DNA of 33,661 nt, from positions 1 to 33,661 of IMG/VR virus record IMGVR_UViG_3300042455_002490, one strand, 5' to 3'. The notes under the pieces were generated by a model. It was not told the origin of the DNA. It ran no database searches and saw only the letters and a list, made by a program, of their open reading frames with translations. The translations under genes and the position numbers were made by a program. How positions within the stretch are numbered: the first letter of the stretch is position 1; every line of letters starts with the position of its first letter. Source of the DNA: a virus. Shown in pieces: positions 1 through 17,538 of the stretch.

Positions 1-291
1 AAATCTTTCGTAAAGCGCGAGCTGGTTTTTGACAACATGGTTCATTCGGCTTGCGTTATCCGCAAGTCTGTCCTGGCTGAGGTTGGTCTCTACGACGAGT
101 CCATGCCTCCGGCGGAAGACTATGAGTTGTGGATGCGCATCGCCAAAGAACACATCATCCTGCATCTTCCTGAAGTCATGATGGATGTCAACGAAGGCGC
201 ACACCAACTGTCGCGTCGCACATCCTCTGACTTTTACGCCAAGCAACTTCAAACTCTCAGGGGGCGACATTGTCAGAGCTTGCTGTCGTAA
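1..291 (+). CDS. Family 2 glycosyltransferase, C-terminal fragment (5' end cut by window)
   Basis: The frame is open from base 1, so this is the last 96 residues of a gene that starts outside the window. The visible part has the usual C-terminal half of a GT-A family 2 glycosyltransferase: a VFDNMVHSACVIRKSVL stretch followed by GLYDE and the acidic motif AEDYELWMRIA, where family 2 enzymes carry the catalytic-base region (ED..L..R). The family moves a sugar from a nucleotide-sugar to an acceptor in the cytoplasm. The end overlaps the next gene by 22 bases, pointing to one operon with the sugar-activation genes that follow. Acceptor and sugar cannot be told. The family call is fairly firm; the specificity is unknown. 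Confidence 0.75.
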   Translation, partial: KSFVKRELVFDNMVHSACVIRKSVLAEVGLYDESMPPAEDYELWMRIAKEHIILHLPEVMMDVNEGAHQLSRRTSSDFYAKQLQTLRGRHCQSLLS

Positions 292-974
292 TATCGGCTG
301 CTGGCGCTGGACGCCGCATGAAAGCCCGCGGGCCGAAAGCCCTCATTGACATTGGTGGGGGCGAGACTGTCCTCAGTCGGCAATTGCACATGGCCAAGAA
401 GGCCCTGCCGAACGCCGAAGTGGTGGTGGTAGTCGGCTACCAAAAAGACCGCGTCATCAAAACCCTGCCAAAAGATGTGCGATGGGTCGAAAACCCAGCC
501 CACGAAGAAACCAATGTGGCCCGATCCCTGCTGATTGGCGTCTCTGGCCACCCAGCACGCAGGGCGGTTCTGATGTGCGGCGATCTCGTCTTTGGTCCGG
601 ACTTCTTGTCCAGCCTGCCGACCGCCGGTTCTGCTGCCGTCATTGATGAAAACCACAATCATCGCTCTTCTGAAGTAGGTTGCAATATCGACCGGGAGAG
701 GGTCTGTCATTTCAGTTACGGGGTTTGGCCGAAATGGGGCCAGGCTGTCGTCTTGGCGGACAAGGAGCTTGACCTCTACAGACGCATAGCCTCCCGTGAC
801 CAATGCGCCCGCTGGTTTGCTTATGAGGTCTTGAATGAAATCATCGATGCGGGCGGTGTGATCGCCCCAGCCTATCCAGAGAAATCATATCTGGTCGAGA
901 TCGACAGCACGCAGGATATCGACAGGGCCAAAACCATGGTTAATAAATTGCGTCGCAAGGGAGTTGTCGCATGA
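270..974 (+). CDS. NTP-transferase (LicC/HddC-like sugar- or choline-phosphate nucleotidyltransferase)
   Basis: This 234-residue protein opens with the nucleotide-binding loop of MobA/GlmU/LicC-type nucleotidyltransferases, AVVISAAGAGRRM (residues 5-17), followed by GPKALIDIGG, where the conserved PK lysine sits. VVVVVGYQKDRVI and the acidic VLMCGDLVFGPDF come next. It ends with YLVEIDSTQDIDRA, a C-terminal signature of the LicC/HddC type. Such enzymes join a sugar-1-phosphate or phosphocholine to CTP or another NTP. I chose the TTG at 270 because it keeps the first strand of the fold and has AGGGGG five bases upstream; the first internal ATG would cut the nucleotide loop. It overlaps both neighbours, and a kinase-like gene lies in the same operon. 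The substrate is not inferable from sequence alone. Confidence 0.8.
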   Translation: MSELAVVISAAGAGRRMKARGPKALIDIGGGETVLSRQLHMAKKALPNAEVVVVVGYQKDRVIKTLPKDVRWVENPAHEETNVARSLLIGVSGHPARRAVLMCGDLVFGPDFLSSLPTAGSAAVIDENHNHRSSEVGCNIDRERVCHFSYGVWPKWGQAVVLADKELDLYRRIASRDQCARWFAYEVLNEIIDAGGVIAPAYPEKSYLVEIDSTQDIDRAKTMVNKLRRKGVVA

Positions 975-6767: not shown

Positions 6768-7000
6768 GATTGAATCCTCGTTCGTTCATCATCCGTTTCA
6801 CCTTTAATCGCCCCACCGGTCAGGGCACTACGCACATTACGCAGGATGCCTGCAACCAGAGGGCCAATCTCAGGTTGATACCCGCCCCATTCACACAGGG
6901 GCAGTCTTTGTTCGAGCGTCGACAGGAAAGCGTCTGCTGCTGTCCAGCCAGCCATTTCCACGGCGTCTCGAATGTCCTTGGGGAAGTCTTCCAGCCTCAT
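6764..7000 (-). CDS. Small hypothetical protein (78 aa)
   Basis: The product is 78 residues, starting MRLEDFPKDIRDAVEMAGWT. The segment up to about residue 30 reads as amphipathic helix; a GGYQPEIGPLVAGILRNVRS helix and a charged tail follow. No family is recognised. I chose the ATG at 7000 because it overlaps the glycosyltransferase stop as TGATG; an upstream in-frame start would lie inside that gene's zinc-binding tail. It is a middle member of the glycosyltransferase unit; a function in the same process is only positional inference. Confidence 0.55.
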   Translation of the reverse strand: MRLEDFPKDIRDAVEMAGWTAADAFLSTLEQRLPLCEWGGYQPEIGPLVAGILRNVRSALTGGAIKGETDDERTRIQS

Positions 7001-8037
7001 CAGACTTCCTCGTAGTCGCTGCAATTCTGGCAAGAGCGAATGCCATCGCCATAGTCCCTGAAGGGACGGCATTTTTCGTGAAGCTCACAGCTGTAAACAA
7101 ATTTGAGTGGGCAGTTGCAATTTCCCGTGTCGATCGGGGTCGCGCTTCTGTGAAAGCACGGCAAGCTTCGTCGAATTGTGCGGACTGTACGAAAGCGTTC
7201 AGGGAAAACACCTTGGCTGGGATCAAGAGCTTCCGCCTCAGCAACGACGGCTTGCAGATTGGCCTCTGCAACCTTGGGAGTGAAGTGTTCAACGACATCC
7301 TGGTAGGGCAAGCCAAGCTCGCGACGGCCAAGAATATAATTGAAAATTCGGTCTTCCAAGAACAAGCGATATGGCACGCCTTTGGGTCGACCGAACCGGT
7401 GCAGCCAAGTCATCCAAGGAACACACATCGCCTGTCCGCCGAACAAGCGGACCTTGGAATGTATATACCCCTCTTCACCACCAAAGCCCCTGAACAGAGT
7501 GTTGAAGCCTGGCCATTCGTTCTTGTTCATCATGAACTGACCCAGGCCTTGCATGGGGATGGGGAATGGCTCTCCGGCTTTCACGCGTTCATCAGTCGCC
7601 CAGGTCCCGTACATGCTGTCGCGCCACACAGGTTCAAAGTGCGTGGCCATGTTGATGTGATCGTCGTACAAAAGCGGGCCTTGATAAAGATTCTTGGGAT
7701 TGGCTTGACCTGACCGAATGAATTCTTTGGTCTTGGCCACCACATCCTTTGTCAGCAGCACATGGCTGTCGAGGCACATGACCCATTCGCCTTGCGCTTC
7801 TTCAAATACGAGCTGTCTGGGCAGAGAAGTGCCAGTCGCATGACCTCGGTGGAGATAGCGCGCTTTTGCCCATTCCGCCGCGCTTTTGGTGTGCGGGCAA
7901 CCGTTGGGTAGGTTGTCCACCACAACGATTTCAACATCAGTCAGGTCGTGGTAGGCACGCAACGCCTGGACGGTGAAATAGACCCCGTCGTAATCGTCGT
8001 AGGTCGCCATGCCGATGGTGAGAAGTGGTCCAGCCAT
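7000..8037 (-). CDS. GT-A glycosyltransferase with GT27-like DSH and GGEE motifs and a Cys-rich tail
   Basis: The product is 345 residues. MAGPLLTIGMATYDDYDGVY begins a family 2/27 GT-A domain. VEIVVVDNLPNG (35-46) is the second strand, and WVMCLDSHVLL carries D90-S-H92, a D-x-H metal site like that of polypeptide GalNAc-transferases instead of the usual DxD. GFGGEEGYIHSKVRLFGG followed by WMTWLHRFG copies the GGEN/E...R...GG...H acceptor-loop layout of those enzymes. The last ~50 residues are cysteine-rich (CNCP, SCELHEKC, CQNCSDY), probably zinc-binding. ATG 8037 is set by AGGAGGA just upstream. It stands apart from the main glycan operon, between it and the tail genes, making a virion or host protein a possible acceptor (inference). 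Confidence 0.8.
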   Translation of the reverse strand: MAGPLLTIGMATYDDYDGVYFTVQALRAYHDLTDVEIVVVDNLPNGCPHTKSAAEWAKARYLHRGHATGTSLPRQLVFEEAQGEWVMCLDSHVLLTKDVVAKTKEFIRSGQANPKNLYQGPLLYDDHINMATHFEPVWRDSMYGTWATDERVKAGEPFPIPMQGLGQFMMNKNEWPGFNTLFRGFGGEEGYIHSKVRLFGGQAMCVPWMTWLHRFGRPKGVPYRLFLEDRIFNYILGRRELGLPYQDVVEHFTPKVAEANLQAVVAEAEALDPSQGVFPERFRTVRTIRRSLPCFHRSATPIDTGNCNCPLKFVYSCELHEKCRPFRDYGDGIRSCQNCSDYEEV

Positions 8038-8109
8038 GATTCCTCCTGCGTCATATGGTTTTATGCGTGCTGGCAGGGGAACGGTTACTATCAACAGAAG
8101 GAGAACGAA
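8038..8109. promoter_or_regulatory. Divergent intergenic region with two Shine-Dalgarno sites
   Basis: This 72-bp gap separates the divergent glycosyltransferase and oxygenase-like genes. It must hold initiation signals in both directions unless transcription enters from elsewhere. Strong ribosome sites lie at each end: AGGAGGA for the minus gene and AGAAGGAG for the plus gene. I see no convincing -35/-10 pair in either direction; TTGATA on minus is spaced too far from CATAAA. A phage-specific or host-factor-dependent promoter is possible. Confidence 0.4.
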
Positions 8110-8894: not shown

Positions 8895-9566
8895 TTAGAC
8901 GTATTCCAGCTGGACCCATAGTCCAAACTGCTTACTTCCGATCCCGTCCGGACTGGCCGATAGAGCCAAGTACCAGTCGTGTCGGGCATCTGTGGTGTTT
9001 GCGCCCGAAGGACGCAGCCCAGAGATCCCCGGCGAGGCGGTCAGGGTGACCGGTTCTCGCTGCGCTGGAGTGGCTTGATTAGCCGTAGTGAACACTTCCC
9101 ATGCCGTAGACCCCGAGCCGGTAGGATTACCGGAATCTTGTACTGTGACGGGGTGAATAATTTCGGCTAGATAAGTTGTTACACCAGATGCCGGATTGGT
9201 CGGAAGGACTCGGTCGTAAATATAGGCTTTGACATTCTGTGTCTTGACCGCTGAGTCGGCGGTGAAGCGCACATTCAGCGTGCTCTGCCAGTTGGGAATG
9301 GCCCGCAGGGGGATGGCCGAAGTGCCGCGCCCCACCAGCCCGCTTCCTGCGTTGGCGTATTTCACATTCCAAGCTTCGGGACCCTGGTTGGTTCCCGTTG
9401 AGTTGGTGATGAAGGTCTTGTCCTGGGCGTTGCCAACGGGGACGGATTCACCGAAACCGCCGCCGTAAAAACCCAGGCCCGAACCAGCCAGACTGGCAAT
9501 CTGAAACGTCGAGAACGTGCCACCGTCCTCAAACTGTCCTGCGTAAAACGAAATCGATGCTGGCAT
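8895..9566 (-). CDS. Phage structural protein, last gene of the tail operon
   Basis: This 223-residue protein is rich in Gly, Ser, Thr and Asn and looks all-beta. It starts MPASISFYAGQFEDGGTFST and has strands in STLNVRFTADSAVKTQNVKA and an aromatic C-terminus ending FGLWVQLEYV. The C-terminal segment ARHDWYLALSASPDG resembles ends of other virion proteins that I recall only in general terms. GGAGG lies 9 bases before ATG 9566. Position after the Cys-rich and Tyr-rich genes, at the distal end of the tail operon, suggests a tail-tip, fibre or decoration protein. No specific family is recognised. Confidence 0.6.
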   Translation of the reverse strand: MPASISFYAGQFEDGGTFSTFQIASLAGSGLGFYGGGFGESVPVGNAQDKTFITNSTGTNQGPEAWNVKYANAGSGLVGRGTSAIPLRAIPNWQSTLNVRFTADSAVKTQNVKAYIYDRVLPTNPASGVTTYLAEIIHPVTVQDSGNPTGSGSTAWEVFTTANQATPAQREPVTLTASPGISGLRPSGANTTDARHDWYLALSASPDGIGSKQFGLWVQLEYV

Positions 9567-9596: not shown

Positions 9597-9941
9597 TCAC
9601 CATTTGCCGTCTGGGCACTTTTGTTCGTCCCAGGAGGCTTTTACATTCATAAAACAACCACAGCCAGAACAACGATTGTCGGGCCGCAGCTTGGGGCAGG
9701 CTTTGCAAATTGCCATTCTTTTTTGATAGGTTTCGCTATCAGATGATTGCATGCCTGTGGCCACATGTTGAGCAACTGCCGTGATGAGGTTCAGGCCTTG
9801 TCGTAACAGCCCAGGCAAGGGCGGTTGAGCCGGAGTCCCCGGCAAGCCCTTGTCCCAAAGTTCACGATAGACCGGGTTACTACTGTATAGCTTGCAGATG
9901 GCGCATTCGCAGACTGATGGATCGTTGGGACACGGCTTCAT
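9597..9941 (-). CDS. Cys-rich zinc-binding protein (114 aa)
   Basis: The product is 114 residues with two cysteine clusters. The N-terminal one has C4, C11, C13 and C16 (CPNDPSVCECAICKLY). The C-terminal one has C79, C82, C91, C94, C96 and C109 (AICKACPKLRPDNRCSGCGC, ending KCPDGKW). The C-terminal pattern C-x2-C...C-x2-CGC...CP..KW is one I recall from small phage proteins encoded among tail genes, where it probably binds zinc. I chose ATG 9941 because it overlaps the previous stop (ATGA) and starts exactly at the first cluster. Its role is unknown; assembly factor or minor tail protein are both possible. Confidence 0.65.
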   Translation of the reverse strand: MKPCPNDPSVCECAICKLYSSNPVYRELWDKGLPGTPAQPPLPGLLRQGLNLITAVAQHVATGMQSSDSETYQKRMAICKACPKLRPDNRCSGCGCFMNVKASWDEQKCPDGKW

Positions 9942-11845
9942 GGCGTCACCGTGATAGGGGGGTGTGCTGTACGATAACCGACTTCGCAAGAATGGCAGTT
10001 GGTAGACCAAATATGATCGATACCATAGAGATACCAAGTTCTGACTTTTACTTTGACCGATTGACCATTGACTAATTGAGACCCAAAAGGAGAAGTTTTT
10101 GATCCGCCATACATTCCACCAAAACTTTCAAATCTAGACACAATTGGCATGTTGGTGAGATAGTGATACGAATAGGCTGTCCCAAGCGATGGTCCAGTCA
10201 CAAACGGATTGCAAATAATCGGTTGATTTTTAATGGTCATTGGCCAGTCGTGATACTCAATATTGTCGTGTTTATTTTTGTAGTTGGCTGAACCTTGTTC
10301 GCAGACATAATAGTAATCGTAAGTATTATAGTAATAGTTGTAATAATAGTAATCGTATGGGTCGCCAATCTTCCAACTTTGAATGATTCCCGATCGCAGT
10401 ATAATAGTTCCATCTGGGTATCTGTACGCATCTGGTATTATTGGATTTGTTGGCTCGGAATAATAATTGCCATCATCAATAAAATATTCAAGAACTGATG
10501 TCAAATAACGCTCTTGAGCATTTGGTACTACTCCCAAATCAATAAACCCATTAGTGCGATTGGTTTTGTTGATCAAATAATAAGAAGCTTCGGCTCTACT
10601 CAACGGAAAAGAACAATCTTTGAGTTGTTGAGACAGACTGCTTTCATTGTAATAAGGTTGTTTGTAGCCAGCGTAAGCAAATAGATAGTAAATAGAATTG
10701 TCCGCTTGTATTTCCGTAAAATTTCCACAGTTTGTGTAGGTATAAGGAATTGGTTGGGTGTTGTCGTAATCATAGTAAACGGGCGCAGCAGCTGAAACCT
10801 GAGCGGTTTGCGTACCCAAACATTTAGTTACGATAGTGACATTGAGTGTCGCAGGTAAACCGCCTCCGCACGGAGGGATAGAATCTTGTTCGTAGGCACA
10901 TAAGTCAAAGTAGGTGTGACCGCCTTTGCTCCAATATTTATCTAAACTACGACTAGTGTTGTCTGCGTAACCACCGTACCATCCCCACCAATATCCATAA
11001 TAATTGTTGGTGTTTGAAAAAGGCCACGAGCAATTGGTTGGCGTACCATAGGGTTGATTGGAACCAGGAAGATATCCGTCACCAGCACCAAGTCCCCAAT
11101 AGCCAGAGTAGCCATTCCATCCGCCCCACCAGTAATACCAATTACCATTGGTTGAATAATCATACTCCTGAGAACGAAGCTCCGCACTCAGCTTGCTCTT
11201 CGTGGAAACGCACTCAGGTATGCCGTTCTTGAAACGGATTACTACGAAGTTGACATCTGCGTTGGCTGTTTTGAGTGGATTTTCTGTGGGCCACTCGTCC
11301 AGATTGAACGGCAACGAGGAAAAGCGAAGATCCATGTCGTTGTTGTTGGCCTGGAATGCTCCCTTGCTAATCGGTATGTACTGAGTGGATGGGTCTCTCA
11401 GGAACTCGGGGCCTTCATACCAGCTATTGTAAAACCAATAGTATGTCCAGCCATAAAGACTTGTGACATCATTCAAGCATGGACAGCGTGTGGCATTGAC
11501 GATCGGGCCAAGCACATTAGGGTTGGTGTAATAGACAGCCCATCCATAATAGTGATAGTTCCAATACCAATAATAGTAGTAATCGTTGTTATAATCGTTG
11601 CGGTCAACGAGGTGTGGGATCGGCAGATCCTGCCCGTTCAGCTTCAAGGACAGAAATCGTTCGGGGGAAGAAAAATCAAAATCCGGCAGGTATTTTCCTG
11701 TTGTTGAGTCGTAAGTGCTGGATTCGCGTGCTCCGAAACGAACAAGAACAACATATTCGTATTCGCCACCCGTGGGGTCAGAATCACACCCAAGGCATTG
11801 GCTTGCCCGATTGCAACAGCACGGCCATCGTCCTTGACAACTCAT
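9938..11845 (-). CDS. Tyrosine/tryptophan-rich virion-operon protein with Cys cluster (635 aa)
   Basis: The product is 635 residues with about 77 Tyr and 22 Trp by hand count. The N-terminus is a Cys cluster (MSCQGRWPCCCNRASQCLGC), then an ordinary beta-like start (YEYVVLVRFGARESS). Aromatic tracts break up otherwise normal sequence: DYYYYWYWNYHYYGW (about residues 81-106), NWYYWWGGWNGYSGYWG and NNYYGYWWGWYGGY (about 226-295), and PYDYYYYNYYYNTYDYYYV (about 495-514). Between the tracts the protein looks globular, with further Cys pairs. The tracts are coded by runs of TAY codons and are AT-rich compared with neighbours. The TAATG overlap with the hub-like gene and ATGA with the next show it is made with the tail. 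A receptor-binding or surface role is inferred; no family is recognised. Confidence 0.7.
   Translation of the reverse strand: MSCQGRWPCCCNRASQCLGCDSDPTGGEYEYVVLVRFGARESSTYDSTTGKYLPDFDFSSPERFLSLKLNGQDLPIPHLVDRNDYNNDYYYYWYWNYHYYGWAVYYTNPNVLGPIVNATRCPCLNDVTSLYGWTYYWFYNSWYEGPEFLRDPSTQYIPISKGAFQANNNDMDLRFSSLPFNLDEWPTENPLKTANADVNFVVIRFKNGIPECVSTKSKLSAELRSQEYDYSTNGNWYYWWGGWNGYSGYWGLGAGDGYLPGSNQPYGTPTNCSWPFSNTNNYYGYWWGWYGGYADNTSRSLDKYWSKGGHTYFDLCAYEQDSIPPCGGGLPATLNVTIVTKCLGTQTAQVSAAAPVYYDYDNTQPIPYTYTNCGNFTEIQADNSIYYLFAYAGYKQPYYNESSLSQQLKDCSFPLSRAEASYYLINKTNRTNGFIDLGVVPNAQERYLTSVLEYFIDDGNYYSEPTNPIIPDAYRYPDGTIILRSGIIQSWKIGDPYDYYYYNYYYNTYDYYYVCEQGSANYKNKHDNIEYHDWPMTIKNQPIICNPFVTGPSLGTAYSYHYLTNMPIVSRFESFGGMYGGSKTSPFGSQLVNGQSVKVKVRTWYLYGIDHIWSTNCHSCEVGYRTAHPPITVTP
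10306..10362 (-). repeat. TAY-codon microsatellite-like tract coding PYDYYYY...DYYYV
   Basis: Nineteen codons here are almost all TAT/TAC with interspersed AAC, GAT and ACT, giving 12 Tyr among 19 residues. It looks like an imperfect trinucleotide expansion inside the 635-residue protein. Confidence 0.7.
11530..11605 (-). repeat. TAY-codon tract coding YYYYWYWNYHYYGW region
   Basis: A second imperfect TAT/TAC-rich tract lies near the N-terminus of the same protein. It carries Trp codons that differ from Tyr codons by two bases. The flanking sequence codes for ordinary mixed residues, so the tract reads as an insertion or expansion in a loop. Confidence 0.65.
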
Positions 11846-14800
11846 TAGCAGTCCGCCGCAACAACAACATAAGTACTGTTATATTCGGCCACAATTACTT
11901 TAGCTCCAGAAGAAATAGGAGTAGATAGATAATTATATACTGATTTAACTCCGCGATTGATTAGGTTGGCGTTTCCGTTTGAGCCGCCGTAGATATATCC
12001 GAGGGCGTTGCCCAGATAAACCTGACTGCCACCGCTTGTCTGATACCACTTCTGTTCATTCGGGACATAAGTCGCCAGAGTGAATCCCTGGGATATGGTG
12101 CTGCCGACAGAACTGGAATAAACCTGGATGGCCTTGGTGGTTGTCACACCGTTGATGATGACATAACCAGACGCAGGATTGCCCTCGGCGAAAATGTATA
12201 CTCTGGTGATTCCAACGCCTGTCCAAACCTTGCGGATGTCATCCCAAAACAAGTCGGTTGGACCCGCCCTGTGAAGATCCGACCTGTAGCCTTGCGTGCC
12301 GCCAATTTGGGTTAGGGAGCCAGGGTTATAAATATCCTGCCCGTAACCAACAACCATCAGGGGACCGCGCAGGCCGACGCTCCTAGCCTCAAACGCCCCT
12401 GCCCCAGCCCCTGCGTTCCAGTTGTTCATCTCGCAGGGTTGCCCGTTTGCCTGCTGGTAGGTGACGATAGATATATCGTTTGAACCAGGGTAGGCGATCG
12501 GCATCAGATTGGTTGCGTTGGCACCCGCAAGGCCCACAGGCAATTCTGCCTTTGGCAACAGAGATGTCCCGTCTGGAAGCGTCCTATACGAAATCCCATA
12601 CTGTGAGCTGGATATACCCCCGTTGTATGTCGGCGCACGGTAGGGCCTGAACAAAGCATCCTGGCTGGTGATCGCCCTGTTCGCAAAGGCCTGTGGATCA
12701 TCAGCCTCCGTATTCGTCATCAATTCATGCAGAGGCGCACTTTTAACATCCAGACGAACGGCGCTGTTGGATGGGCTGGCAAAACCGGCCACGCATTCAT
12801 GCGGGGTTTGAACCCGGTGGAACTTGTCGAATGCCCCAGCGGTCATCGACAGACCAAAAGCCCCCGCGCTCGCTCTTGCGGAACTCTGCCTAGCTTTCGC
12901 CTGATCGATGGCCATCTTGGAAAGGTTTCTACGAAGCTGAAGACCTAGCTGGCCCGTCTTCCGCATCCGGTCGATCGTCTGTCTTGGGATCACGCCAAAG
13001 CGTGGACTGTAGTTCTGGAATGCGTAGGTTGAAGTCACGCCGCCCGTGCCCAGAGAAATCTCAATCGAAGTCACGGCTGGCCCGTTGGCCTGGAGTGCCT
13101 GTCCCAGAGAAACTTTTGGGTAATCCGGTTGTGTGATGCGGCCATGTTCGGTCAGGGCCAGCTGACTAGAACCATCAAACAATCTGGCGAGGGCGACGCG
13201 GTTCATCACGATTTCAGAACCGTAATTGCTCGGCACTAACTCGCTATCAACTTCCACCTTCACCCTTCCTGGCACGCCTGAGTAAACCCAGTATGGGCCG
13301 TAGGTGATCCGGTTACTTTTCAGCGGCACAACGAAGAAAGATGGGTAAATGGGAGGTGGGTGGATGCGTGTCTTTGAAGACTCTGCGTTCGTTTGATAGA
13401 GATCTGCCGGAGTTCCCAAGACGCGACTGATAATGCTGTGGTTGCCGGATGGGTCGTTTGTCTTGGAGAAAATCGGATTCTGGACGGTCATCCTCACCAG
13501 AGGCCCGCCCATATAGGCTATCCCAGGTCCCGACAAAACATAGCGAATGAATGGGCTGTTGCTGTAAGGAGTCGTTACCGAAGGATAATACATCTGCTCG
13601 ATTTTGTCGCCGATGGAAGACTTGACATAAGCGCCCACCTGATCCATCAGGACATCTTGCGGATTATCTATGACGGCCCCGCCCTGGATCAGCCTCTGGT
13701 AGTTGTAAACGACAAAAGGCTCAAATCGACTCTGCTCGTCTGAAAGATAAAGATGGGTCGGCGTTAAGAGGGTCAAGCCGAACGGAGCAAAAAGAGGGTT
13801 GGGGTTGATCGGCGGCTCGGTGATCTCCATGAATGCGCTGCGGGTGATGTCGAACTCGTAGCGAATGTTCGGGCGAAGATCTTCCTTGAAAGGAACTTTC
13901 TCGTCAATCGTCGACGCAGAGATGCCAAGGCTGACGATGAATTCTTTGCCGAGGTGTTGGTTGGCAACGCCAGACAACCAGCTGAAAAACCTTCTCCTGC
14001 CCTCGGATCGATCGTATGTGGCCTCCAAAGCGCGGGCAAGTATGGCCTGCGGGTTGGTCTGCACCATGCTTCCTGTGTTGACGCCAGCAAGGAGCACCTG
14101 ATTGGAGCGGTTACTCTGGAAGCCGGTCATGGCGAAAAATACTTCTGGTCGGTATTTCTCGATGAACTCCATCCAGGAGTCGATCCCGGCCATGGCGAAT
14201 TGCAACTCAAGTGTTGTGCAGAAGTAGTAGGTCGACCCGATGACATCCTCGACGCCTTGGGCGTAAAGGTTCATCATGTCGCAAGGATAAGAGATGGGGC
14301 CTTCACCGGGCAGTTTGGGGGCGAGGATAGCCACCCCGGGCTGACCAAGAATCGGATTCTTGTTTGCGTCATACCCCCAGAAGGAAGCATAGTCCAGCTT
14401 GCTGAACATTCCTTCGTAGGGGCCACCAATCAACATGGAGGCCGTCTGATGGCCCTGGGCCATTTCGATGCCGTGCTCAATCGAGGTGGCGTTGGAGCCA
14501 GGCTGATTGACAATGGCCCCGATGGTGCCAAGGGAAAGGGCCAGCTTGCGACTGATCGTCCTGATCTTGATCGTGTAGCCGATCAGCTCTACGACAAAAT
14601 CGTATCCTGCGTCTTGACAGACTTTGCTGATAACATCGTACAGGCTGACGACAGCGTTGCCTTCGATGCGATAGTAGGGGTCGGGGATAGGGAGTTCGCT
14701 TAAATCCAACGAATAATAGACGCCTTTTGGAAATTCAGCGGTTGGCACGCCCCACCGCATGGGGCCACCGTAAGGCGTGATCAGCGGCTGATTACAAATG

Positions 14801-15300
14801 AACAGCACGGCCTTGAAGAAGGTGATCCAAGGCATACCGATTTCGTCAGACCCCGAGAAACCAAACCCGCCAAGGCCGTTCGTTTCATCTTCCCAGAACC
14901 CATAGGCGTTGATGACATTGGTGATGCCGATCGGTATGGGGCCGACATATTGACCAATGATGACCTGAGTGGCCTGGAGAATCTCTCGGGGATCAACCAG
15001 AACCGTATCGTAGGCAATGCCGCTGGTTGATTTCTTCTTGGTCACCTTGGACAAGATGCCGCCGAAGTAGAATCCACCCAGACGAAAACGCATGGGGTGG
15101 CCGACTTGGCAAGGGAAGTCGTTGTAGAGATAGTCGAAGTCGCCCGTCTCTTTGACGAGACTCAGATTCATGGAGCTTCCGTTGTCGCCCCAGGAAACAT
15201 TGCTGCTGGCCTGCTGGACATAAAAGCCCAACAAAGTGCGGTCATTTGACCCGTAGGTTACCTGCGGTAACAGGTACTGAAAATCACTTTCCGTAGGCAT
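11845..15300 (-). CDS. Large tail hub / tail-tip protein candidate (1,151 aa)
   Basis: The product is 1,151 residues. The N-terminal ~360 residues look like a tail-hub beta domain. They contain VGHPMRFRLGGFYFGGILSK followed by YDTVLVDPREILQATQVIIG, a layout like the 'field of view, then DPReiL' part of gp27/late-control-D-type hubs, with VISKVCQDAGYDFVVELIG afterwards. The centre is mixed alpha/beta. From about residue 770 comes YSPRFGVIPRQTIDRMRKTG and a helical tract, then a Gly/Ser/Thr-rich C-terminal beta region (GVTTTKAIQVYSSSVGST). It sits three genes after the tape measure, where siphovirus hub or tip genes lie. It overlaps the previous gene by 17 bases with no obvious Shine-Dalgarno, suggesting coupled translation. 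Structural role likely; hub assignment moderate. Confidence 0.6.
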   Translation of the reverse strand: MPTESDFQYLLPQVTYGSNDRTLLGFYVQQASSNVSWGDNGSSMNLSLVKETGDFDYLYNDFPCQVGHPMRFRLGGFYFGGILSKVTKKKSTSGIAYDTVLVDPREILQATQVIIGQYVGPIPIGITNVINAYGFWEDETNGLGGFGFSGSDEIGMPWITFFKAVLFICNQPLITPYGGPMRWGVPTAEFPKGVYYSLDLSELPIPDPYYRIEGNAVVSLYDVISKVCQDAGYDFVVELIGYTIKIRTISRKLALSLGTIGAIVNQPGSNATSIEHGIEMAQGHQTASMLIGGPYEGMFSKLDYASFWGYDANKNPILGQPGVAILAPKLPGEGPISYPCDMMNLYAQGVEDVIGSTYYFCTTLELQFAMAGIDSWMEFIEKYRPEVFFAMTGFQSNRSNQVLLAGVNTGSMVQTNPQAILARALEATYDRSEGRRRFFSWLSGVANQHLGKEFIVSLGISASTIDEKVPFKEDLRPNIRYEFDITRSAFMEITEPPINPNPLFAPFGLTLLTPTHLYLSDEQSRFEPFVVYNYQRLIQGGAVIDNPQDVLMDQVGAYVKSSIGDKIEQMYYPSVTTPYSNSPFIRYVLSGPGIAYMGGPLVRMTVQNPIFSKTNDPSGNHSIISRVLGTPADLYQTNAESSKTRIHPPPIYPSFFVVPLKSNRITYGPYWVYSGVPGRVKVEVDSELVPSNYGSEIVMNRVALARLFDGSSQLALTEHGRITQPDYPKVSLGQALQANGPAVTSIEISLGTGGVTSTYAFQNYSPRFGVIPRQTIDRMRKTGQLGLQLRRNLSKMAIDQAKARQSSARASAGAFGLSMTAGAFDKFHRVQTPHECVAGFASPSNSAVRLDVKSAPLHELMTNTEADDPQAFANRAITSQDALFRPYRAPTYNGGISSSQYGISYRTLPDGTSLLPKAELPVGLAGANATNLMPIAYPGSNDISIVTYQQANGQPCEMNNWNAGAGAGAFEARSVGLRGPLMVVGYGQDIYNPGSLTQIGGTQGYRSDLHRAGPTDLFWDDIRKVWTGVGITRVYIFAEGNPASGYVIINGVTTTKAIQVYSSSVGSTISQGFTLATYVPNEQKWYQTSGGSQVYLGNALGYIYGGSNGNANLINRGVKSVYNYLSTPISSGAKVIVAEYNSTYVVVAADC

Positions 15301-16942
15301 AGGTCACGCTAAAGTTGTAACGACCAGTCGTGTAATTGAATCCGTCTGTCAGTTTTTCAACAAACAGCTTGGGGAACTGAGCGGTGTTTGGTATTAGGCC
15401 AAGCTGAGCCAAAGCCGTGAATGCGTCTTGACGACTTGGCTTTACTGGTCTTCCATCAGACTGATTCACAGTGCCCACAACAACTTCCATCGTGATGTCG
15501 CGAGTTGTTTTGGTGATGTTGAGTAAGTTTTGGTAGATTGGCCCCTTGCCGAGCGGATTAGCCCCATCGATTCGCCCCAACACATCGATTGCGGCGAAAA
15601 GAGGAGTGCCGCCATTGTCTGTGAAGCTAACCTCAAAGAATTTTGCCGTTTGAAAAACGGCTGGGCGATAACGATTGTTGAATTCTAGATTGTAAGTAAT
15701 GGTTCCAGCCACCTTATTGTGGCCGACAGTTACCTGAGCTGGTTTTTGAGCCAAATATTCAGAACCTAGAATCAACACAATCCTGTCGCGCACTAACTTG
15801 TAATCGTTTGCGGCAAGCAAATTCCATTTAGTTTTGGCGTGTTCGTATTTTGCTAATGGTTGTTCAAAAGCCCCCGTCCTGTTTGGCCGCAAGGCTGTGA
15901 TGGTGCCATCGATTGAGATTGTCTTCAGGGTAGACTCCGAGGAGTCCTTGATGCTGATGTTGAACTCTTCCAGAGCAGGGATGTAATTATTCCCCACCTT
16001 GGCCCCGAACTCGTCCACATTGGCTTTGGCCAGATCGACGATCGTCCAGTTTTCAGTAACGCTAAACTTACCACCAGCCTCATCAACCGTAATAGTACGA
16101 ATGGCATCGTAGGCCCTGACGCTGTCAGAACCGGAAGCTGGCTGTTCGCTGAAGGCATTGGCGATAGCCCCGCCCAGGCCAAAGTAGCTGAGTCCGGCGG
16201 GAAGATTGTTCAGCTTGAGCTTGGAGGATGGCGGGTCTCCCGTCGCCGCATTATCGACAAGATTGGTGTCCGAAGCCAGCTTTTTCAGGACGGCGGCTCG
16301 GGCGATTTCAAACCCCGGCACATTCCTGTTGGTGGTGCCACCGACCCATCGGGTTGTCGCCTGTGCGCTGGCTTGATGGGTGAGCTTGTACTTGCGGAGA
16401 CTTTCGTCCGGCTCCATCGTCCAGGATTCTTCCACGCCCACATCATCCTCGGCATCCATACCGATGGTGTTGGTGCCAATCTTGAGGTAGTCTGCCTCCA
16501 GATTGATCGTGTACTCGAAATAATCGGTGAACGGCCCATCGGTGATGTCGATGGATTTGACACGCGGATAACAAAGAATTGTGGAACTTGCGCCAGAAGC
16601 ATCCCAGGGAGTGATTTGGAGGCTGGGGCGTTCAGTCTGTGCCAATGGCACTTTTGGCCGAAACAGTTCTTCAAGCTGACCAATTTTCTTTTGAATCTCC
16701 GCTTGACGACTGTTCATTTGAACGGTCGTTGCGGGCTGGTTTGCTTGAGCGATCAAATCTGCGGTGCTAGTGTTGGCAATAACACCACCCTTGTACGCCA
16801 GCATCCGCCCCTTCAGGCTGATATTGAACAGATACTTCTTGACACGACCGTCTTCAAATCTGTCGATCTGGGTTGAGATGGACACAAAGGGGCCGGGAGC
16901 CAGGACTTTTTCTTGTCCCTGTGGTCCGTAAAGAACAGGCAT
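15284..16942 (-). CDS. Tail-tip / baseplate-like structural protein (552 aa)
   Basis: The product is 552 residues, mostly beta, starting MPVLYGPQGQEKVLAPGPFV. A first domain to about residue 200 contains KKYLFNISLKGRMLAYKGG and GPFTDYFEYTINLEADYLK. A helical linker follows (NSRQAEIQKKIGQLEELF is in the early part), and a second part repeats the theme with TITYNLEFNNRYRPAVFQ and YNFSVTYAYGK at the end. The two halves share 'Y..N.E' strand patterns, suggesting a duplicated beta domain. Position two genes after the tape measure suggests a distal-tail or tip-ring protein. A good site, GGAGGG, precedes ATG 16942, which overlaps the preceding stop as TAATG. No family is firmly recognised. Confidence 0.6.
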   Translation of the reverse strand: MPVLYGPQGQEKVLAPGPFVSISTQIDRFEDGRVKKYLFNISLKGRMLAYKGGVIANTSTADLIAQANQPATTVQMNSRQAEIQKKIGQLEELFRPKVPLAQTERPSLQITPWDASGASSTILCYPRVKSIDITDGPFTDYFEYTINLEADYLKIGTNTIGMDAEDDVGVEESWTMEPDESLRKYKLTHQASAQATTRWVGGTTNRNVPGFEIARAAVLKKLASDTNLVDNAATGDPPSSKLKLNNLPAGLSYFGLGGAIANAFSEQPASGSDSVRAYDAIRTITVDEAGGKFSVTENWTIVDLAKANVDEFGAKVGNNYIPALEEFNISIKDSSESTLKTISIDGTITALRPNRTGAFEQPLAKYEHAKTKWNLLAANDYKLVRDRIVLILGSEYLAQKPAQVTVGHNKVAGTITYNLEFNNRYRPAVFQTAKFFEVSFTDNGGTPLFAAIDVLGRIDGANPLGKGPIYQNLLNITKTTRDITMEVVVGTVNQSDGRPVKPSRQDAFTALAQLGLIPNTAQFPKLFVEKLTDGFNYTTGRYNFSVTYAYGK

Positions 16943-17538
16943 TAATAACCCTCCGTAATCAGATCAACAGAGTTGGTGCCCACACCAGTGCCTGCCGTGA
17001 TCATGTCCAGCGACCCCGTAGATCCAATGGGGCCAACCAAATACAATACGCAGCCACCAGTGGCCTCTTGTGCATAGCCGGTCACTGTGAGCGGCAACAC
17101 AGAAGAGGTCTCTGGCGTTCTCCAAACCACTAGGTTGAGGCCTGCGCCAAACACGGGCGCCTCGATGGTCAGAGGAAGCGAATCGCTGACGATCTCGGTG
17201 GCGTTGTTGGCGGTGAGCAGCGGCAGGGAGTTCGAGACTGTCTGGTTCGCCCCCTCCACAAACAGGTTCATGTTTTGCTGGCTATCAGCTATATCACAGA
17301 AGATATATAGATTTATACCTTGTCCATATATCTTGCCGCTGATGACTAAGGGTAAACCTTTGGCCGTCCCATAGTTGACGCCGACGGTGTGAAGGGGCAA
17401 GGAGCTACCACCAGCCGGTATTTCAGGGGCCTTGAGGAATAGGTTGAACGGCTCCCATGTCAAGGATTCGCCGCCGAACCCGAGGACCAGCCCCCCGGGC
17501 GCGGCGAGTACGTCTCCCAGTCTTCCGGTGAAGATCAT
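16942..17538 (-). CDS. Beta-repeat structural protein following the tape measure (198 aa)
   Basis: The product is 198 residues built from repeated short strands of the type 'LPL.(V/I).G.....G..L.L(Y/W)': SSLPLHTVGVNYG, GLPLVISGKIYGQGINLYIF, SLPLTIEAPVFGAGLNLVVW and VLPLTVTGYAQE. The regular spacing suggests a repetitive beta structure. Similar 'LPL..xG' repeats occur in proteins next to tape measure genes in other siphophages (general recollection). The TAATG overlap with the tape measure stop means it is translated right after it. Likely a tail-tip or distal-tail component; the exact role is not known. An AT-rich patch with an 8-bp inverted repeat (17301-17333) lies inside the coding region. 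Confidence 0.6.
   Translation of the reverse strand: MIFTGRLGDVLAAPGGLVLGFGGESLTWEPFNLFLKAPEIPAGGSSLPLHTVGVNYGTAKGLPLVISGKIYGQGINLYIFCDIADSQQNMNLFVEGANQTVSNSLPLLTANNATEIVSDSLPLTIEAPVFGAGLNLVVWRTPETSSVLPLTVTGYAQEATGGCVLYLVGPIGSTGSLDMITAGTGVGTNSVDLITEGY

Follow-up and report, generated by a model that had tools for sequence, protein, structure and literature searches.

The locus described here raises the question of whether the tyrosine- and tryptophan-rich tracts of a protein encoded in a phage tail operon are fast-changing products of triplet expansion or are maintained by selection, and what part such a protein may play in the tail. The stretch of DNA analyzed (termed the window) comprises 33,661 nt from an uncultured bacterial virus; its IMG/VR record (IMGVR_UViG_3300042455_002490) is linear and probably a fragment. 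Coordinates of its features are collected in Table 1.

The aromatic protein and its tail operon

An open reading frame with an ATG start and a translated chain length of 635 aa was confirmed on the minus strand at exactly positions 9938–11845. Its product, termed the YW protein, contains 77 Tyr (12.1%), 22 Trp (3.5%) and 19 Cys residues; proteins encoded by the adjoining genes have 2.2%–5.7% Tyr and 0.2%–1.0% Trp. A set of 220 open reading frames of at least 150 aa, taken from the phage group of the window virus, was ranked by combined Tyr and Trp content. The YW protein (15.6%) and its homologue P0006 (16.5%) are the top two, the third-place open reading frame has 10.9%, and the mean is 5.1% (SD 2.3%). 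The aromatic residues are also clustered relative to shuffles of the YW protein itself, with p = 0.0004 for 10 Tyr/Trp within 12 residues, p = 0.0002 for 11 within 16 and p = 0.0004 for 14 within 24.

Five aromatic tracts were delimited (tracts I–V, Table 1). Asn, Asp and Gly are interspersed in the tracts and the protein as a whole is acidic, with a net charge of −18. Cysteines form an N-terminal motif, CX5CCCX5CX2C, and a C-terminal CX2C motif.

Sequence and profile searches gave no Pfam, PHROG or PDB match to the YW protein, tblastn gave none in 50,697 phage records or in plasmids, and self-BLAST detected no internal duplication. An AlphaFold model, built on an alignment of two sequences, has a pLDDT of 25 and is unusable.

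Table 1. Positions of the YW gene, its tracts and the neighboring tail-operon genes in the window
Feature	Position (nt)	Strand	Evidence
Conserved 223-aa protein flanking the cassette	8895..9566	-	90–96% identity in all close relatives, 42% in the distant clade
Small Cys protein, DUF6171-like C-terminus	9597..9941	-	PF19668, 4.2e-8; phrog_13558; ATGA overlap with YW gene
YW protein (P0001), putative tail-tip adhesin, 635 aa	9938..11845	-	Open reading frame and translation, composition, homologue P0006
Aromatic tract V, residues 490–515	10301..10378	-	1 residue longer in relative; degenerate tandem array
Aromatic tract IV, residues 278–297	10955..11014	-	1 residue shorter in relative
Aromatic tract III, residues 227–251	11093..11167	-	2 residues shorter in relative
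Aromatic tract II, residues 128–147	11405..11464	-	Comparison with relative
Aromatic tract I, residues 82–108, RNDYNNDYYYYWYWNYHYYGWAVYYTN	11522..11602	-	27/27 aa the same in relative; pN 0.0, pS 0.957
N-terminal Cys cluster, residues 3–20 (SCQGRWPCCCNRASQCLGC region)	11786..11839	-	Six Cys invariant between homologues
Putative hub, C-terminal ~64 residues, replaced along with YW gene	11848..12039	-	Alignment collapse in L013/L015, not in L002
Putative tail-hub body (P0002, 1151 aa)	12040..15300	-	79% to L013/L015 over residues 1–1092; 72–73% to L002
Conserved 552-aa tail-operon protein, upstream of hub	15284..16942	-	72–85% in relatives
198-aa tail-operon protein	16942..17538	-	Operon position
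Tape measure protein, 4759 aa	17538..31817	-	PF10145 PhageMin_Tail, E 1.9e-22

The gene order on the minus strand is tape measure, 198-aa protein, 552-aa protein, 1151-aa putative hub, YW protein, small Cys protein and 223-aa protein. The PF10145 match of the tape measure protein places the YW gene in a tail operon. Because the 1151-aa protein has no profile or PDB match, its designation as a putative hub follows from its position only. The 50,697 phage records contain no match to the YW protein and none to the putative hub or the 223-aa protein, and the terminase of a relative has ~30% identity or less to known phages among the matches listed. The YW protein is a candidate tip protein of an uncultured, large siphovirus-like lineage that lacks close matches among these records.

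Tape measure proteins correspond to about 0.15 nm of tail per residue; on this basis, the 4759 aa of the protein in the window would predict a tail length of roughly 700 nm. The tape measure in a relative found on a 149-kb contig has 3868 aa. An HExxH motif of the metallopeptidase type is present at residues 650–654 of the tape measure, in IYPRHGGDTLLHEMVHLLDFN, with no Pfam peptidase match. The same protein carries repeats of the form GG.VPG.G.TDSV.A.L.PGSFV.RKS at residues about 481–515 and 974–1085 and in its C-terminal third, and the repeat segments match one another between genomes.

Selection on the aromatic tracts

The sole homologue of the YW protein found is P0006, encoded on a 149-kb IMG/VR contig (locus L002), with an identity of 73%. 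No further homologue was found in viral-contig scans with the protein or parts of it, in a genome-contig scan, or by tblastn of phages and plasmids. Synonymous sites are saturated between the two genes (pS 0.81 over the gene), and the pair is therefore informative about selection. The 73% identity equals that of the neighboring genes (72%–73%). Accelerated evolution of the YW protein is thus not seen, and since the pair evolves no faster than its neighbors, its sequence displays no sign of an arms race.

Tract I shows no amino acid change over 27 codons at a pS of 0.96. In tracts II–V, Tyr or Trp is kept at 92.5% of the Tyr/Trp positions, while other residues there are 59% identical. The pN of the tracts together is 0.164, compared with 0.182 for the rest of the gene. 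Residue order has drifted in four of the five tracts, and three have changed in length (the lengths differ by 0–2 codons), with aromatic composition kept. All 19 Cys residues are invariant (19/19). The longest run of TAY codons in the gene is four, with TAT and TAC mixed; the longest run of a single codon is three (AAC), and TAT or TAC runs do not exceed two. The unchanged tract I, the retention of Tyr and Trp, the invariant Cys residues and the mixture of TAT and TAC point to purifying selection and not to triplet expansion or hypervariable loops. As judged from these comparisons, this means that the aromatic composition of the tracts is held by purifying selection. Two ideas that are often merged are hereby separated: tracts that look to be of low complexity need not be hypervariable.

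A preliminary description of this DNA had reported the Tyr/Trp tracts in a 635-residue protein and an N-terminal Cys cluster containing CCC. The tracts are borne out in counts, outlier composition and clustering beyond shuffles, and the Cys cluster is present (C3, C9, C10, C11, C17 and C20). The same description likened the TAY runs of the tracts to trinucleotide expansions, a view at odds with the short, mixed TAY runs and with the restriction of the degenerate array to tract V. It also considered fast loop variation plausible, but such variation is not seen in the pN values, in the 27/27 identity of tract I or in the small differences in length. A comparison of tract lengths among relatives had been suggested there, with tracts identical in length and sequence across divergent relatives to count against the proposal; the result obtained with P0006 is near that outcome.

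Two processes that would generate variation in the tracts can be considered in the light of these data. If the tracts had arisen by TAY simple-sequence slippage, fast changes in tract length could act as a host-range switch. This is very improbable and has already been largely refuted. It would fit the 1–2 codon indels, which sit in tracts III, IV and V, and the overlap of tract V with a degenerate array (period 18, 2.8 copies, 76% matches). Tract V is however the sole aromatic tract for which Tandem Repeats Finder reports an array. The codon runs are short and mixed, tract I is unchanged where synonymous sites are saturated, the tracts have no higher pN than the rest, and near-perfect repeat units with length variation, as in a simple-sequence contingency locus, are not found. 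It is hardly credible that the tracts are targets of a DGR, i.e. that these segments rich in Tyr, Asn, Asp and His came from adenine-specific mutagenesis of AAY codons. The tract residues Tyr, Asn, Asp, His, Ser and Thr do correspond to the set derived from AAY, and Mtd, the DGR-diversified tropism protein of a Bordetella phage, becomes Tyr-rich, with a potentially Tyr-rich binding surface (PMC3567102). Against this, a reverse transcriptase (PF00078) was found in none of seven records (the window and six related records, including the 149-kb contig; records may be incomplete), and no template-like second copy of any tract was found in the window or in the 149-kb contig. The tracts are conserved, not hypervariable, and several are distributed throughout the YW protein, in contrast to the one C-terminal variable region in Mtd.

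Exchange of the gene block and a variable slot in two clades

Two baits, the putative hub and the 223-aa protein, retrieved closer relatives of the window. These are L013 (the same as L014 and L018), L015, along with the partial contigs L016 and L019, and L025. The hub body of the window has 79%–81% identity to L013/L015 and 72%–73% to L002. The similarity to L013/L015 collapses after about residue 1090 of the hub, but that to L002 does not. In L013/L015 a gene for a 169-aa protein, unrelated in appearance, takes the place of the YW gene; similarity is also missing over the first part of the gene that follows and then returns. Only L002 has the window version of three pieces: the putative hub end, the YW gene and the beginning of the following gene, whose product, the small Cys protein, has an N-terminal part that co-varies with the cassette. 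Together these pieces make up the contiguous block that is swapped.

A tree of the flanks, built on the 223-aa and glycosyltransferase proteins, has the form (L025,(L002,(window,(L013,L015)))), and both inner branches are strongly supported. The AU test rejects a clade of the window with L002 (p = 0.00023), and on the flank tree the cassette type has thus changed at least twice. The divergence of the YW pair equals that of its flanks and so gives no sign as to which lineage gained or lost the cassette. With the 169-aa protein as query, a viral-contig scan added no genomes to this set, and the hub had no matches in a scan of genome contigs.

The junctions in both genomes with a YW gene (window and L002) are TAATG between hub and YW gene and ATGA between YW gene and next gene; those of the alternative 169-aa cassettes are TGATG and ATGA. 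Overlapping junctions in both cassette types are consistent with translational coupling.

The 169-aa protein is found in the slot of L013, L015 and L025. It resembles the YW protein in its operon slot, in the kind of overlapping junctions and in having an N-terminal Cys motif, which ends in LGCD. It differs in being a quarter of the size and in having no aromatic tracts. Its AlphaFold model is a beta-sandwich of moderate quality (pLDDT 66.5). Comparison of this model with the PDB gives CBM60 (Z 6.5) and PLAT/C2-like domains (Z 5–6), which are below the level to trust. Two clear relatives were found in BFVD (A0A516MDF2 and A0A516LRQ9, ~30% identity, E under 1e-8). Homology between the 635-aa and 169-aa proteins is not claimed: the hhalign probability is 2%–3% and there is only a short N-terminal likeness, LGCD-x-Y, a similarity matched by 2%–17% of shuffles for the window protein and 11%–55% for its relative.

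The same operon order is present in a distant clade of IMG/VR contigs of 96–157 kb (L026, L027 and L028). Between L026 and L028 the hub has about 82% identity overall and 34% over its last roughly 150 residues. The slot protein (about 1260–1280 aa) has 47% identity, and the following protein, of the 223-aa type, 95%. The slot proteins of this clade (1158–1281 aa) are 26%–40% identical in their C-terminal part, and their flanks 82%–95%. They form a second variable tip family, with no match in phage records.

The slot is thus variable in two clades, and in both a conserved hub body is followed by a hub end and a putative tip protein that have been exchanged or have diverged. From the wholesale replacement of the gene block in relatives, the YW protein probably belongs to the host-contacting part of the tail tip. 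It is a genuine orphan protein of an unusual kind, encoded in an exchangeable, putative tail-tip cassette, and the conserved aromatic tracts are its distinctive feature.

A proposed tail-tip adhesin and its alternatives

The reading favored here, and held with moderate confidence, is that the YW protein is an exchangeable tail-tip adhesin whose aromatic patches serve as a fixed contact surface. The protein would be built into the tail tip as a structural part, either joined to the putative hub at its C-terminal end or assembled with that end, and would make the surface that contacts the host. The five tracts may lie exposed as patches or loops of constrained composition and bind a surface ligand. 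The leading guess for this ligand is a glycan on whose sugar rings Tyr and Trp would stack, or else an epitope made up of both protein and glycan. Aromatic stacking is described as common in sugar binding (PMC6152320, PMC5726637), and Mtd provides a precedent for Tyr-rich surfaces as effective binding sites (PMC3567102). Judging from the sequence, the 19 invariant Cys residues would allow metal binding, and they may stabilize the fold by this means or by disulfides. Host range would be changed by recombination that swaps the whole cassette (hub end, tip protein and start of the next gene) and not by mutation of the tracts. The receptor-binding role put forward in the preliminary description retains indirect support in the tail operon, the overlap with the putative hub gene and the wholesale-replaced slot; the fast loop variation attached to it does not.

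Interfacial energies bear on where the tracts may lie. On the Wimley-White scale the values for tracts I, III, IV, II and V are −14.0, −12.8, −10.4, −9.2 and −8.0 kcal/mol per 19 residues. The best values elsewhere are −4.5 for the hub, −3.3 for the 552-aa protein and −4.5 for the 223-aa protein. By a wide margin, the tracts are the five most favorable segments of the YW protein, and in the relative the corresponding five likewise stand out. A serious alternative, though an unlikely one, is that the tracts are membrane-interface elements, i.e. Tyr/Trp patches inserted into the outer leaflet or outer membrane that anchor the tip or help open the envelope without a specific receptor. On the Kyte-Doolittle scale the tracts do not come out as hydrophobic, which is the behavior of interfacial and not of transmembrane segments. 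Exposed hydrophobic patches on the “brush fingers” of other siphophage tips are thought to touch lipid-rich surfaces (PMC13243795), and conservation of the tracts would suit an invariant target such as lipid. The interfacial energy however follows trivially from the Tyr/Trp content, and the interspersed Asn, Asp and Gly residues and the net charge of −18 also speak against membrane insertion. A similarly low probability is given to a structural protein of the tip or baseplate in which the tracts are buried and pack between subunits or domains, so that cassette exchange would reflect co-adaptation and not host recognition. Full conservation of tract I would be in accordance with a core interface, and exchange of the YW gene jointly with the hub end and the first part of the following gene suggests a physical interaction. 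On the other hand, drift in order of four of the five tracts and in length of three would be unusual for a tight core, the Asn/Asp/Gly-rich spacing suggests loops, and the slot tolerates a 169-aa replacement protein.

The tail-tip adhesin proposed above can be compared with known systems. In long-tailed phages the tail tip is the most diversified part, and hubs can carry C-terminal receptor-binding domains, as in lambda gpJ (PMC10721106). The YW gene resembles the lambda gpJ C-terminus and T5 pb4/pb5 in its place behind a putative hub at the end of the tail operon, and here too the hub end and following protein are variable or exchangeable with the hub body conserved. It differs in that the YW protein is a separate protein of 635 aa with aromatic tracts and a Cys cluster, in that there is no sequence match, and in that the hub is assigned by position. 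A compositionally biased, low-complexity tip protein also recalls the gp38-type adhesins and poly-glycine “brush” of S16, PP01, LSH1 and mycobacteriophages, in which tip loops of low complexity are proposed to touch the host surface (PMC12892980; PMC13243795). The bias of the YW protein is however aromatic and not toward glycine, its tracts are conserved and not hypervariable, and there is no PDB-chain profile match. Glycine accounts for 8.3% and 7.2% of residues in the two homologues. A poly-glycine II structure was rejected: the one short segment with GXX spacing, GWNGYSGYWG, loses this spacing in the relative. In the lambda gpL type of iron-sulphur tip protein, Cys residues coordinate a cluster; the YW protein, with its 19 invariant Cys residues, may be capable of binding metal.

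It may tentatively be suggested that the YW protein represents a new class of tail-tip contact protein, with conserved Tyr/Trp patches on a Cys-stabilized scaffold that would function in recognition or membrane docking and be exchanged only as an intact cassette together with the hub tail. Such a class would be distinct from hypervariable loops, poly-glycine brushes and DGR lectins. If the adhesin reading is right, the locus offers a clear, testable example of a phage host-contact tip that is swapped as a unit reaching from the hub end into the beginning of the next gene, and of a tip binding surface built from conserved aromatic-rich tracts.

The primary receptor-binding proteins may instead lie elsewhere. 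In the 149-kb relative, a cluster of long fiber-like open reading frames (up to 2047 aa) extends from L005:10172 to L006:10573. Several of these display LamG/ConA-like features by eye, and the cluster may encode side-fiber receptor-binding proteins. Beside the tail operon of the window are a MobA-like nucleotidyltransferase (PF12804, positions 270–974, plus strand) and a family-2 glycosyltransferase (PF00535, positions 7000–8094, minus strand), and the 149-kb relative has several more glycosyltransferase-like open reading frames. A possible role of these genes is modification of virion or host glycans.
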